This document shows, piece by piece, positions 3,037-38,977 of a stretch of DNA of 46,140 bases (its first letter is position 1; every line of letters starts with the position of its first letter). This DNA comes from Beijerinckiaceae bacterium (GTDB taxonomy: Bacteria > Pseudomonadota > Alphaproteobacteria > Rhizobiales > Beijerinckiaceae). The stretch lies in contig JALOTF010000046.1 in NCBI GenBank assembly GCA_025458025.1, forward strand, positions 1 to 46,140, read 5' to 3'. Below the pieces are notes generated by a model. That model was not told where the DNA came from and made no database searches. It saw only the letters and a program-made list of their open reading frames with translations. The position numbers and the translations under genes were made by a program.

Positions 3037-3816
3037 TTACTGGATTGCCTTCTTGCCCAGCCACTTCATGGCATGCTTGTCGAGCGTGCCGTCGGTCTTG
3101 GATTCCGCGATCGCCTTGTTCAGCATGGCTTTCAGCGCGGCATCCTCCTTGCGGATGGCCATGCCGACGCCCGGACCGTGAATGGCCGCGTCACGCTTCA
3201 CTTCGGCGACGATCTTGCAGCAATCCTTGCCCTTGTCCTTCAGGAAGCTCTCGAGCGCCTCGAGATCCGCCACGATGTAATCAAGACGGCCATTCAGAAG
3301 GTCGAGATTGGCTTCCTCCTGCGTGGGGTAGGGCCGGATCGTTGAATCCTTGTAATAGGCCTCGAGGAAGTTCATGTGGATGGTCGAGCCCTGCGCGCCG
3401 ATCGCCTTGCCCTTGAGGGCTGCGGGCGAGATGTCGGTCGAGGTGATCGACTTCGCGCCGACCATGGCGATCGGGGTCGAGGTGTAGACATCGGTGAAGT
3501 CCACCCGCTTCTGGCGCTCGGGCGTCGCGTTCATGCCGGCGACGATCACGTCATACTTCTTCGAAAGCAGCGCGGGGATGATGCCATCCCAATCCTGCAC
3601 CACCCAGGTGCACTTCACTTTCATCTTCGCGCAGAGATCGTTCATGTAATCGATCTCGAAGCCTTCCAGCTCCTTCTTGGCGTTCAGGTTGTTGTAGGGA
3701 GGATAGGCGCCCTCGGTGCCGATCTTGATCTCGGTGATCGCTTGCGCCTGCGCGCCCGTGGCGAAGCCCGTGATCGCCAGGGCTGCTGCCGCGAGAAGAA
3801 CGCGTTTGGTGGTCAT
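3037..3816 (-). CDS. Periplasmic amino acid-binding protein of ABC transporter (SBP family 3)
   Basis: A 259-residue exported binding protein. The signal peptide is MTTKRVLLAAAALAITGFATGAQA, cleaved after AQA near residue 24 (the string is described here in two halves: MTTKRVLLAAAA and LAITGFATGAQA). The mature part opens with IKIGTEGAYPPYNN, the usual family 3 start that forms the ligand pocket. Further hallmarks are GFEIDYMNDLC, VAGMNATPERQKRVDFTDVY and a GxxxGAQGSTIH hinge region. The ligand class is lysine/arginine/histidine/glutamine-like polar amino acids; the exact ligand is not determined. The start is the ATG at 3816 after an AGGGAG site; the open frame further upstream lacks a signal peptide and is ignored. 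It is the first gene of the minus-strand unit 3816 to 621. Confidence 0.9.
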   Translation of the reverse strand: MTTKRVLLAAAALAITGFATGAQAQAITEIKIGTEGAYPPYNNLNAKKELEGFEIDYMNDLCAKMKVKCTWVVQDWDGIIPALLSKKYDVIVAGMNATPERQKRVDFTDVYTSTPIAMVGAKSITSTDISPAALKGKAIGAQGSTIHMNFLEAYYKDSTIRPYPTQEEANLDLLNGRLDYIVADLEALESFLKDKGKDCCKIVAEVKRDAAIHGPGVGMAIRKEDAALKAMLNKAIAESKTDGTLDKHAMKWLGKKAIQ

Positions 3817-12621: not shown

Positions 12622-12649
12622 TCACGCGAAGCAAAACCGCTTCGCGTGA
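12622..12649. repeat. Palindrome related to the REP-like family; possible shared terminator
   Basis: TCACGCGAAGC and GCTTCGCGTGA form a perfect 11-bp stem with a 6-nt loop. The 15-base string AACCGCTTCGCGTGA is identical to part of the element at 26005-26047 (minus strand), so this looks like a shortened or inner version of that family. It sits between the convergent MCP-like gene and moaA. It lacks a T-run. Confidence 0.7.
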
Positions 12650-12661
12650 CGATCACCCGCT

Positions 12662-25984: not shown

Positions 25985-26004
25985 TTGAGGGGTTCTTGTC
26001 GGTC

Positions 26005-26047
26005 GCATGTTCTTCACGCGAAGCGGTTCCACTTCGCTCGAACATGC
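26005..26047 (-). repeat. REP-like palindromic element (intergenic copy)
   Basis: A 43-bp inverted repeat with outer arms GCATGTTC / GAACATGC and inner arms GCGAAG / CTTCGC. On the minus strand it aligns base for base (one gap) with the elements at 33734-33777 and 38912-38955, sharing GCGAAGTGG, CCGCTTCGCGTGAAG and ATGC ends. The similarity to the gltX copy continues outside the arms (TTGGAGCATG on the left, ATGCGACC..ACAA on the right). It sits 21 bp after the DUF2059 stop. Confidence 0.85.
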
Positions 26048-26072
26048 TCCAACTTCACAGCCTTGTGTGATG

Positions 26073-31308: not shown

Positions 31309-33066
31309 ATGAATGGTGCTCCGATGAACGCTGCCCCCGCTCGCCTCACCCTCGCTCTCGCGCAGGTGAACCCGATCCTAGGCGATATCGCCGGCAATCT
31401 CGCGCGGGCGCGCGATGCGCGGTCCAAGGCTGCGCAAGCCGGGGCTGAGATCGTGATGTTCCCGGAATTATTCCTGATCGGCTATCCGCCGGAGGATCTT
31501 GTGCTGAAACCCGCCGTGCAGGATGCCTGCCGGCAGGCGCTCGATGATCTCGCCCGCGACACCGCCGATGGCGGCCCCGCCGTGCTGATCGGCTTGCCAT
31601 GGAAAGAGGGGGGCAAGCTTTTCAATGCCATTGCAGCGCTCGATTCGGGACGAATCACCGGCGTGCGTTTCAAGGTCGATCTGCCGAATTACGGTGTGTT
31701 CGACGAAAAGCGCGTGTTTGATTCGGGGCCCATGCCCGGCCCGCTGCCCCTGCGTGGTGTGCGCCTCGGCCTGCCGATCTGCGAGGATATCTGGACGCCG
31801 GAGGTGGTCGAATGCCTCTCGGAGACGGGGGCAGAAATCCTGCTCGTGCCGAATGGCTCGCCCTATCGGCGCGGCGTGGCGGATGAGCGGATGAATGTTG
31901 CCGTGGCGCGTGTGGCTGAAAGCGGGCTCGCGCTGGTCTATCTCAATCAGGTCGGCGGGCAGGATGATCTCGTCTTCGATGGCGCGAGCTTCGGGCTTAA
32001 TCCCGGTGGCGCCATGGCCTTCCAGATGCCCGGTTTCCGTGAGGATTTGCAGCTCATCACGCTGGAGCAGGGCGCTTCGGGCTGGCAGATCTCAGAAGGC
32101 CCGAAAGCCTTGCTCGCCGAGCAGGACGAGGCGGATTACACCGCCTGCATGCTGGGCCTGCGCGATTACGTCGAGAAAAACCGCTTCCCCGGCGTAGTCC
32201 TCGGCCTTTCCGGCGGTATCGATTCCGCAATCTGCGCGGCGCTCGCGGCGGATGCCCTCGGGCCGGATCGCGTGCATGCGGTGATGCTGCCCTATCGCTA
32301 TACCTCGGAGGATAGCCTGATGGACGCCAAGGATTGCGCGAGCGCGCTGGGTATCCGCTACGACATCCTGCCGATCGCCAGCGCGGTGGAGGGGCTGGAA
32401 GCTGCGGTGGCACCCATCTTCGCCGGCACGAAACGCGACATCACGGAAGAAAACGTGCAATCGCGCGCGCGCGGCACGATCCTCATGTCGATCTCGAACA
32501 AGTTCGGACCGATGGTCGTGACCACCGGCAACAAAAGTGAGATGAGCGTGGGCTATGCCACGCTTTATGGGGATATGAATGGCGGCTTCAACCCCATCAA
32601 GGACCTCTACAAGATGGAGGTCTACCGCCTTTCGGCCCTGCGCAACCGCTGGAAGCCCGCGGGCGCGAGGGGCCCGGATGGCACGGTGATCCCCGAGAAT
32701 ATCCTCGTGAAGGCTCCCACCGCCGAATTGCGCGAGAACCAGAAGGATCAGGATTCGCTGCCGCCTTACCCCGTGCTCGACGACATTCTCGAATGCCTCG
32801 TCGAGAAGGAGATGCGCGTGGCCGACATCATCGCGCGCGGGCATGACCGCGCGACCGTGGAGCGCATCGAGCATCTGCTGGCCATCGCCGAATACAAGCG
32901 CCGGCAATCCGCGCCCGGCGTGAAGGTCACGCGCAAGAATTTCGGCCGCGACCGCCGCTACCCCATCGTCAACCGCTTCCGCGATCGCTCGGAGGGGGCA
33001 TACGCCCCGGATCAAGGCATCCAGCCCGAGCCGATGAAGAGCCTCAGCGAGGCCTATGATGGCTAA
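31309..33066 (+). CDS. nadE: Glutamine-dependent NAD+ synthetase
   Basis: This 585-residue two-domain enzyme makes NAD+ from deamido-NAD, ATP and glutamine. The N-terminal nitrilase-type amidase (about residues 12-260) shows the Glu-Lys-Cys triad in FPELFLIGYP, FKVDLPNYGVFDEKR and LPICEDIW. The C-terminal synthetase has the ATP-binding loop LGLSGGIDSA (near 298) and YTSEDSLMDA, MSISNKFGPMVVTTGNKSE and KDLYKMEVYRL. It overlaps the start of gltX by 8 nt, so translation is probably coupled. An ATG 15 nt downstream is an alternative start. Confidence 0.96.
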   Translation: MNGAPMNAAPARLTLALAQVNPILGDIAGNLARARDARSKAAQAGAEIVMFPELFLIGYPPEDLVLKPAVQDACRQALDDLARDTADGGPAVLIGLPWKEGGKLFNAIAALDSGRITGVRFKVDLPNYGVFDEKRVFDSGPMPGPLPLRGVRLGLPICEDIWTPEVVECLSETGAEILLVPNGSPYRRGVADERMNVAVARVAESGLALVYLNQVGGQDDLVFDGASFGLNPGGAMAFQMPGFREDLQLITLEQGASGWQISEGPKALLAEQDEADYTACMLGLRDYVEKNRFPGVVLGLSGGIDSAICAALAADALGPDRVHAVMLPYRYTSEDSLMDAKDCASALGIRYDILPIASAVEGLEAAVAPIFAGTKRDITEENVQSRARGTILMSISNKFGPMVVTTGNKSEMSVGYATLYGDMNGGFNPIKDLYKMEVYRLSALRNRWKPAGARGPDGTVIPENILVKAPTAELRENQKDQDSLPPYPVLDDILECLVEKEMRVADIIARGHDRATVERIEHLLAIAEYKRRQSAPGVKVTRKNFGRDRRYPIVNRFRDRSEGAYAPDQGIQPEPMKSLSEAYDG

Positions 33067-34468
33067 GCCCGTCTTCCGTTTTGCCCCGTCGCCTACGGGC
33101 TACCTGCATATTGGCAATGCCCGCACCGCCCTGTGGAACGCGCTGATGGCGCGTAAAAGCGGCGGAACCTTTCTGCTGCGCTTCGATGACACCGATACAG
33201 AGCGCTCCCGGCAGGAATTCGCGGACGGCATCCTTGAGGATCTGGCTTGGCTGGGGATTCCGCCGGACCGCATCGAGCGGCAATCCGATCGTGCCGCGCG
33301 ATACGCCGCCGTGCTCGAGGATTTCAAGGCGCGCGGGCTGGTCTATCCGGCCTATGAGACCGCCGAGGAACTTGATCGCAAGAGGAAGCGCCAGCAGGCG
33401 CGGGGCCTTCCGCCGGTTTATGATCGCGCGGCTCTGGCGCTCACCGATGCGGATCGCGCGAAGCTCGAAGCCGAGGGGCGGCAGCCGCATTGGCGCTTCA
33501 GGCTCTCCGGGCAAACCGTGCGCTGGCAGGATGGCGTGCGCGGCGAGTGCCATATCGAGACGGCCTCATTGTCCGATCCCATCCTCGCGCGCGCTGAAGG
33601 GCAGGTGCTATACACCTTCGCGAGCGTGATTGATGACGCCGATTTCGGCATCACCCATGTGTTGCGCGGCGAGGATCATGTCGCGAATACCGCGGTACAG
33701 ATCGAGCTTTTTCAGGCTTTGGGTGCAGCTGGAGCATGGGCAAATGAAGTCGATGCCGGTTCGCGTGAAGCCCATGCGACCACAATAAGGCTTCCGGCTT
33801 TCGCGCATCACAACCTCATCGCCTCCGCCACCGGCGAGGAGATGTCGAAGCGCACGGGCGCGCTCTCGCTGCGCTCGTTCCGGGCGGAGGGTGTCGATCC
33901 GCTGGCGGTGGCGATTGTCGCGACGCTCACCGGCACGTCCGAAGCCATCCGCCCGCTGGAAGGGCTCGATGCCTTGGCTGATCTGCTCGATCTTTCCAAA
34001 TTCTCCCGTGCACTCACGAAGTTCGATCCGGCGGAGATCACCGACCTCTCGGTGAAGCTGCTGCATGCCAAGCCCTTTGCAGCCCTTCAGGAATCGCTTG
34101 CCCATCTCGGAATTTCCGGTCCCAAGGCGGAAGCTTTCTGGGCGGCAATCCACGGCAATGTGAGCCGGCTGGAGGAGGTGCGCGAATGGTGGAGCCTGCT
34201 GATTGAGCCCCAGAATTTCGCCGTGGCCGAAACGGATTTCCTCAGCGAATGCGCCGGCCTGCTGCCTGCCGAGCCTTTTGGTGTCGAGACATGGAGCCAG
34301 TGGGTTGGTGCGATTCAGGCGAAAACAGGCCGGAAGGGCAAGGCGCTCTTCATGCCCCTTCGCCTTGCGCTCACGGGGCGCGAGCAGGGGCCGGAGTTGA
34401 AGGCCGTGTTGCCCCTCTTAGGGCGGGCTGAGGCTCTGGCGCGTTTGGTGCCGGCGCAACGACTCTGA
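33059..34468 (+). CDS. gltX: Glutamate--tRNA ligase with an in-frame palindromic-element insertion
   Basis: This class I aminoacyl-tRNA synthetase has about 469 residues. Its catalytic motifs are FAPSPTGYLHIGNARTALWN (HIGH-type) and EEMSKRTGALS (KMSK-type, near 261). The C-terminal helical anticodon-binding part is present. Between IELFQALGA and PAFAHHNLI, where relatives have only one or two residues, this protein carries about 20 extra residues including AWANEVDAGSREAHA. These are encoded by a REP-like palindrome at 33734-33777. The reading frame stays open through it. Many Alphaproteobacteria have two GltX proteins, and which copy this is cannot be told. The second of two adjacent ATGs is preferred, with GAGG six bases upstream. 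The 3' end overlaps the convergent DUF2865 gene by 98 bp. Confidence 0.93.
   Translation: MAKPVFRFAPSPTGYLHIGNARTALWNALMARKSGGTFLLRFDDTDTERSRQEFADGILEDLAWLGIPPDRIERQSDRAARYAAVLEDFKARGLVYPAYETAEELDRKRKRQQARGLPPVYDRAALALTDADRAKLEAEGRQPHWRFRLSGQTVRWQDGVRGECHIETASLSDPILARAEGQVLYTFASVIDDADFGITHVLRGEDHVANTAVQIELFQALGAAGAWANEVDAGSREAHATTIRLPAFAHHNLIASATGEEMSKRTGALSLRSFRAEGVDPLAVAIVATLTGTSEAIRPLEGLDALADLLDLSKFSRALTKFDPAEITDLSVKLLHAKPFAALQESLAHLGISGPKAEAFWAAIHGNVSRLEEVREWWSLLIEPQNFAVAETDFLSECAGLLPAEPFGVETWSQWVGAIQAKTGRKGKALFMPLRLALTGREQGPELKAVLPLLGRAEALARLVPAQRL
33734..33777 (+). repeat. REP-like palindromic element inside gltX
   Basis: A 44-bp inverted repeat with outer arms GCATGGGC / GCCCATGC. It aligns without gaps to the element at 38912-38955 and with one gap to that at 26005-26047, sharing GCCGGTTCGC, TGAAG and the GCAT / ATGC ends. 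The arm-tip triplet is GGG/CCC here, TTT/AAA and GTT/AAC in the others, so pairing is kept while sequence varies. Flanks TGGAGCATG and ATGCGACC are shared with the 26005 copy. It is translated as about 15 residues of GltX. Confidence 0.85.
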
Positions 34469-38908: not shown

Positions 38909-38911
38909 AAA

Positions 38912-38955
38912 GCATTTTCAAGCGAAATGGTCGCCGGTTCGCCTGAAGAAAATGC
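38912..38955 (+). repeat. REP-like palindromic element (intergenic copy)
   Basis: A 44-bp inverted repeat with outer arms GCATTTTC / GAAAATGC and inner arms GCGAA / TTCGC, plus the conserved centre GCCGGTTCGC. It starts 3 bp after the FAH stop and ends 22 bp before the MBL gene start, so it would be transcribed as an intercistronic hairpin. It is the same family as the elements at 26005 and 33734. Confidence 0.85.
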
Positions 38956-38977
38956 GTGAGTAAAAAAAGGAGCAGCT

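Follow-up and report, generated by a model that had tools for sequence, protein, structure and literature searches.

Comparative sequence analysis points to a palindromic repeat inserted in frame into gltX and other genes of a Beijerinckiaceae bacterium

Introduction

Palindromic repeats inside protein genes are known from Rickettsia, where the RPEs are in-frame palindromic repeats that encode a conserved peptide and lie in non-structured protein segments (passages on RPEs in PMC10969869 and PMC2996958). As further cases of protein-coding palindromes, PMC2996958 cites repeats of Wolbachia and of an archaeon, Methanocaldococcus jannaschii. In 2013, GTAG and CGTC REPs were reported inside genes of many bacteria, with tRNA synthetase genes in X. 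oryzae, “E. lithoralis” and S. alaskensis among them; the sections on REPs in that study describe the CGTC type as mostly alphaproteobacterial, with rhizobia among the carriers and no dedicated transposase for its families, and name no intragenic case from Hyphomicrobiales (PMC3733652). The intergenic palindromic repeats of rhizobia comprise RIME, the Sm-repeats and the AB and C palindromes (passages on these elements in PMC2573895).

The subject of this work is a palindrome found in a stretch of 46,140 nt (hereafter, the window) of the contig JALOTF010000046.1 of a Beijerinckiaceae bacterium (assembly GCA_025458025.1). A first-pass annotation of the window had treated palindromes in protein genes as a phenomenon established for Rickettsia. 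This is correct but too narrow, as the known cases also include Wolbachia, M. jannaschii and the intragenic REPs. “E. lithoralis” and S. alaskensis are free-living alphaproteobacteria, and the host of the present repeat is presumably free-living, judging from named relatives such as Rhabdaerophilum.

Compared by description only, as given in the passages on RPEs, the repeat resembles RPEs in that the same palindrome occurs in unrelated genes and elsewhere, in frame and with empty sites in relatives; it differs in its Hyphomicrobiales host and in its unit of 57–63 bp, RPEs being given a length of about 150 bp. RIME, the Sm-repeats and the AB and C palindromes, likewise compared with it only by their description in passages of PMC2573895, are also intergenic palindromes of Hyphomicrobiales. 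The literature searched, including by the repeat sequence and with thin coverage of subscription journals, yielded no description of this family. It is therefore apparently an undescribed, new Hyphomicrobiales family among the protein-coding palindromes.

Results

The Insert in gltX

The gltX gene of the window (33056..34468, plus strand) encodes a glutamate–tRNA ligase type protein of 470 aa, which scores 301.6 bits with NCBIfam TIGR00464 (cut-off 289.95). Relative to sister species, it contains an in-frame insert of 60 nt net (33727..33786, plus strand, boundaries accurate to within a few bases), and the PF00749 stretch stops at residue 225, where the insert starts. As the first-pass annotation had stated, the reading frame is kept and both catalytic motifs are intact: the ORF is open across the insert, and the HIGH-type motif HIGN (33107..33118) and the KMSK-type motif MSKR (33842..33853), both on the plus strand, are unbroken.

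Within the insert lies a 48-nt copy of the palindromic repeat (33733..33780, plus strand), matched by our covariance model R1 with 53.1 bits and an E value of 9.2e-14 over the whole genome. Positions 33734–33777 read GCATGGGC...GCCCATGC, that is, a perfect 8-bp outer stem (left arm 33734..33741, right arm 33770..33777) enclosing a partly decayed inner stem; the copy with its flanks reads AWANEVDAGSREAHAT in frame. The copy looks like a decayed member of the family. Folded alone, it reaches a z-score of only -1.09, with 31 of 200 shuffles equally good; the evidence for the insertion is therefore its membership in the family and the empty alleles rather than its folding.

The insert is missing at this site in all 80 fetched GltX orthologs. 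The spacing between RGEDH and F-A-H-H, measured by pattern, is 40 residues in the GltX of the window versus 20–25 in 64 of the 80 orthologs, and the remaining 16 were read by eye. The insertion of about 20 residues and its absence in relatives, as proposed in the first-pass annotation, are thus borne out by alignment. The same 20 residues, conserved in distant GltX proteins that lack the palindrome, were not seen among the 80 orthologs either. Lineage-specific inserts are common in aminoacyl-tRNA synthetases, and an ancient insertion peculiar to GltX, similar to the repeat only by coincidence, might be considered for this reason; its absence from every ortholog fetched and the strength of the repeat match (E 9e-14) make its probability negligible, and a conserved GltX insertion is ruled out by the same orthologs. 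Sequence comparison thus confirms that a palindromic repeat has been inserted in frame in gltX, one of several such events in these genomes.

One part of the first-pass annotation found no support, namely that this gltX copy is an essential gene. A GltX relative is present in 61 of 61 genomes searched, and the genome under study (G000) has two GltX-type proteins, that of the window (C57) and C99, with 40% identity to it, in addition to a shorter GluQRS-like match (C92). Because of the second GltX-type protein, essentiality of the gltX copy in the window cannot be assumed.

Architecture and Copies of the Repeat

R1 was built from 23 copies of the window or the rest of the own genome; the rsmB and rsmH copies described below were included, and those in gltX, the oligopeptidase B gene and ratA were excluded. 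The two intergenic elements of the window that had been proposed as counterparts of the gltX palindrome are both real. One lies at 26002..26048 on the minus strand (R1 65.5 bits, fold z -6.33), and the other at 38911..38958 on the plus strand, 2 nt behind a stop codon (67.6 bits, fold z -2.17); since both were used in building R1, these scores hold by construction. In the R1 alignment, 98.9% of the pair cells are paired and 18 cells are changed on both sides, and none of 500 shuffles was as high on both measures; both-sided changes affect five of the eight pairs of the outer helix. The 48-nt hairpin consists of two 8-pair helices with an internal loop and a 3-nt loop, followed by an A-rich tail. 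An Rfam scan of the window found only a tRNA above the gathering score, and no such match for the repeat.

The own genome (3.29 Mb in 153 contigs) contains at least 46 R1 matches at E ≤ 0.01, with 150 of 2364 candidates scored. Copy numbers per genome are lower bounds throughout, at most 150 candidates having been scored in each genome and 50 in each during the order-wide search. Out of 54 own-genome matches listed, four overlapped others, leaving 50 for inspection (the 46 and four weaker ones). A short palindrome at 12626–12655 of the window, CACGCGAAGC...GCTTCGCGTG, matches the core of the repeat weakly (E 0.03).

The common place of the repeat is directly behind genes. By a rule based on coding potential, 20 of 44 own copies begin -3 to +6 nt from a stop codon of the same strand, and for 11 of 44 a converging stop lies 8–17 nt beyond; four weak copies (L173, L180, L181, and L182) were oriented against the strand of R1 in this count, which leaves the 20 unaffected, as they include none of these four. 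The repeat also occurs in tandem, with 57–63 bp per unit and the A-rich tail included, in the related genomes G004, G007, and G010. In at least 4 of 14 stretches (L303, L305, L306, and L312), a different sequence of the form GAGCATCCGATCT...TCGGTCAG follows the repeat arrays and is perhaps a second mosaic element.

In the order as a whole, R1 matches at E ≤ 1e-6 were found in at least 29 of 121 genomes and 23 of 84 genera, the own genome included. Plasmids of Methylobacterium, Bradyrhizobium, Xanthobacter, and Chelatococcus are R1-positive; in one plasmid of Xanthobacter and one of Chelatococcus, the repeat begins directly 3' of the stop codon of the upstream gene. Copies in Xanthobacter and Chelatococcus plasmids that seemed intragenic were rejected, as the overlap amounts to the last two bases of annotated genes. 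Plasmids of S. meliloti carry a 31-nt stretch with 93.5% identity to half of the repeat query in BLAST, and the pSymB stretch gave no R1 match at E ≤ 0.01.

A small palindrome with a high copy number, tandem copies and a position near the 3' ends of genes, which PMC3733652 also reports for REPs, recalls a REP/RAYT-type element that is moved by an IS200-family Y1 transposase and enters genes by chance. GTAG and CGTC REPs are likewise small palindromes by gene 3' ends that are sometimes intragenic, tRNA synthetases included. CGTC REPs, however, have a stem of 8–9 bp, a loop of 4–5 nt, A-T first pairs and a CCA tail. Here there are two helices of 8 pairs, the loop has 3 nt, the outermost pair is G-C in 23 of 23 R1 copies, and the terminal CGTC is present in only five of the 23 (CGAC in 11, a GTAG end in none), so a CGTC REP was rejected on its end sequence and stem. 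The identification as a GTAG REP/RAYT was rejected as well, because the RAYT (Y1) transposase domain PF01797 was found in none of nine repeat-rich genomes (at least 43 repeat matches each; two only 78–83% complete), in contrast to 5 of 14 control genomes. Taken together, we regard a transposase-driven REP/RAYT system as unlikely.

Copies Inside Other Genes of the Genome

The covariance-model search for copies in coding genes, which the first-pass annotation had suggested, showed at least 6 of the 50 inspected own-genome matches to be intragenic. Besides gltX, they lie in rsmB (L151), rsmH (L157), the gene for oligopeptidase B (L166), a ratA-like gene (L167), in which the repeat is in reverse orientation, and a SRAP gene (L188). 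Five of these at least six copies match at E ≤ 0.01; the SRAP copy is weak (R1 E 0.19) and, by eye, appears to be a variant with the same architecture as the repeat. The 50 matches were inspected by coding potential and only 12 were read as translations, so that six in-gene copies is a minimum. Long open frames were dropped as evidence for genes, since many of them are spurious in these genomes; genes were recognized by homology, by coding potential and by empty alleles.

For the comparison of alleles, five segments were joined as one query, and orthologs were taken from seven related genomes. The rsmB insert is present in the own genome and G007 and empty in G010, G004, G003, and G006. The rsmH site is filled in the own genome and G005 and empty in G004, G007, G010, G001, and G006; G003 carries a short insert of another kind. 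In the oligopeptidase B gene, the own genome, G005, and G003 have filled alleles, and G004, G007, G001, and G006 empty ones. The ratA-like gene is filled in the own genome and empty in G003, G006, and G001; at this site, G004 (similar length) and G007 (shorter) have stretches no longer resembling the repeat. The SRAP insert occurs in the own genome only, with empty alleles in G010, G005, G004, G003, G001, and G006. The comparison covers these genes except rsmB in G005 and G001, ratA in G005 and G010, SRAP in G007, oligopeptidase B in G010, and gltX in G010 at the insert site.

Each of these six conserved genes with an in-frame copy has empty alleles in some relatives. The net lengths relative to the empty allele were 45, 48, 54, 57, 60, 63, or 66 nt. 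Each of these values is divisible by three, which is partly expected, because frameshifting inserts would go unrecognized as intragenic. No convincing target-site duplications were seen by eye at the filled/empty junctions.

The phylogeny of the genomes, calculated from alignable columns with some genomes lacking some of the genes, was ((((own,((G004,G010),G007)),G005),G003),(G001,G006)) with support of 96–100. Given this tree and the distribution of alleles, rsmB, rsmH, and oligopeptidase B each require either loss or repeated gain at one site; of the two, loss is our tentative preference.

The alleles also bear on the question of an artefact. The allele of gltX with the insert is known from one genome, in a fragmented assembly of 153 contigs, and assembly or binning might in principle have pasted a repeat into the gene. 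Against this, the insert is in frame, and the gltX copy is unlike every own copy compared: its best-scoring partner, L149, with the same arm sequence, reaches an alignment score of 48 of a possible 63. Moreover, orthologous inserts in rsmB, rsmH, and the oligopeptidase B gene recur across separately assembled genomes. An artefact is consequently very improbable.

Another explanation is that the insert is functional and selected, either through an RNA structure that regulates the gltX mRNA or as a useful loop of the enzyme. In favor of this, the outer stem of the gltX copy is perfect, and the frame of the oligopeptidase B insert is open over three species. Still, the inner stem in gltX is partly decayed and the fold hardly exceeds that of shuffled sequence, the inserts are present or absent among sisters, and they are carried by unrelated proteins; we therefore consider such a function improbable.

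In-Gene Copies in Related Genomes

The gltX gene of the sister genome G005 (L061) has a different 57-nt in-frame insert at another site (about 3533–3589), with the core GGAAAAGTGGAAACCGGTTTTCC. It gave no R1 match at E ≤ 0.01, and by eye it appears to be a palindrome-bearing variant with the architecture of the repeat.

Further inserts were found with a profile of the translated repeat, inspection and family searches: two in valS of G004, one in valS of G010, and one each in argC, lutB, and the N-acetylmuramoyl-L-alanine amidase gene of G008. The two inserts in valS of G004 (L295) are 189 bp apart, and their repeats are identical over 48 nt; the second, of 60 nt, is empty in G010 (L296), which has the first only. 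The comparison with empty alleles covers gltX, rsmB, rsmH, oligopeptidase B, the ratA-like gene, SRAP, and this second valS insert. The evidence for the first valS insert and those in argC, lutB, and the amidase gene consists of repeat matches, open frames, and interrupted or lengthened family profiles at the insert. In PDB comparisons, the ArgC alignment continues across the insert and shows no clean gap, whereas the LutB matches stop short of it.

From the listed matches with long open frames, 21 rows in the favored frame (see below) were picked by hand; the rows other than these inserts were spurious frames, lay upstream of genes or extended gene ends. Five long frames (L286 and L298 in G004; L280, L287, and L294 in G008) have the repeat as their C-terminal end, a possible source of new protein tails.

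Reading Frame and Encoded Peptide

In 34 own copies, the frame AFSSEVxxGSREENA was open in all 34, the reverse frame AFSSREPxxTSLENA in 33, and both HFQAKWxPVRVKKMR and the reverse HFLHANR in 31, among the six frames translated. All forward in-gene copies found use the first of these, which gives a polar peptide; the searches partly favored that frame. The profile searches covered the first three of these four mostly open frames, and the query alignment A3 came from copies in the favored frame, so the test of frame preference is partly circular. In a frame-agnostic scan of the own genome, 4 of the 5 in-gene copies at E ≤ 0.01 were in the AFSSEVxxGSREENA frame.

Coding potential on both sides of the repeat was found for 13 of 31 long frames in the favored frame; two of these 13 lie at ORF edges, and the 31 include seven known beforehand. 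For the AFSSREPxxTSLENA and HFQAKWxPVRVKKMR frames, the corresponding number was 0 of 44 cases (12 and 32 rows, hand-picked among the listed matches with long open frames). The both-sided rule also rejects two cases accepted by homology, the amidase and the oligopeptidase B of G003. The AFSSEVxxGSREENA peptide is net acidic (-1.9), and its share of disorder-promoting residues is the highest by a small margin (0.64 vs 0.47–0.62).

Predicted Structure of the GltX Loop

The AlphaFold2 model of GltX had a mean pLDDT of 90.0 and a pTM of 0.85; it was based on an alignment of 35 sequences, selected from a longer list without L127, L133, and L085, the last of which has a stop codon within its range. 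Residues 227–242, inside the insert, are the sole run of three or more residues with pLDDT below 50, placed between the helix 206–228 and the strand 248–252. The insert maps between residues 246 and 248 of the solved GluRS structure 4g6z. According to the AlphaFold2 model, it would probably add about 20 residues as a disordered loop.

Discussion

Overall, the insert in gltX is very probably one copy of a short, palindromic Hyphomicrobiales repeat that is occasionally added in genes and appears to survive when the frame and the site tolerate it. The repeat is a hairpin of about 48 nt with an A-rich tail, commonly situated directly behind stop codons, and copies would now and then be added inside genes by movement of the repeat. 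Such a copy may survive if its added length is a multiple of three, if orientation and phase give the polar, net acidic peptide AFSSEVxxGSREENA or decayed forms of it, and if the site tolerates a loop. In the present case, GltX would carry about 20 extra, probably unstructured residues. Subsequently, the palindrome may decay with the frame kept open, or the insert may be lost.

Our observations at the sequence level (the insertion itself, filled and empty alleles, the open frame, the family, and the frequent placement behind stop codons) form the basis of this scheme. The disorder of the GltX loop is a prediction of the structural model, and translation of the inserts, selective tolerance, loss, and movement of the repeat are inferred steps.

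A more far-reaching interpretation is that the repeat is a portable peptide-coding module, kept in such a form that it encodes a soluble, disordered, acidic linker in one orientation and frame. The repeat would then have evolved to spread by entering genes and would constantly supply core enzymes of Hyphomicrobiales with new loops, which are gained repeatedly and lost cleanly. We consider this unlikely, and prefer the occasional addition of a tolerated repeat, as set out above.

In conclusion, the present findings would extend the protein-coding palindromes to a group of Hyphomicrobiales with genomes of 3–4 Mb and many close relatives. Since filled, decayed, and empty alleles can be compared at a single site, the movement of the repeat, the choice of frame, tolerance of the peptide versus selection, and changes in the enzymes become testable. 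The two identical 48-nt copies in valS and the two different gltX inserts in sister species may serve as good material for such tests.
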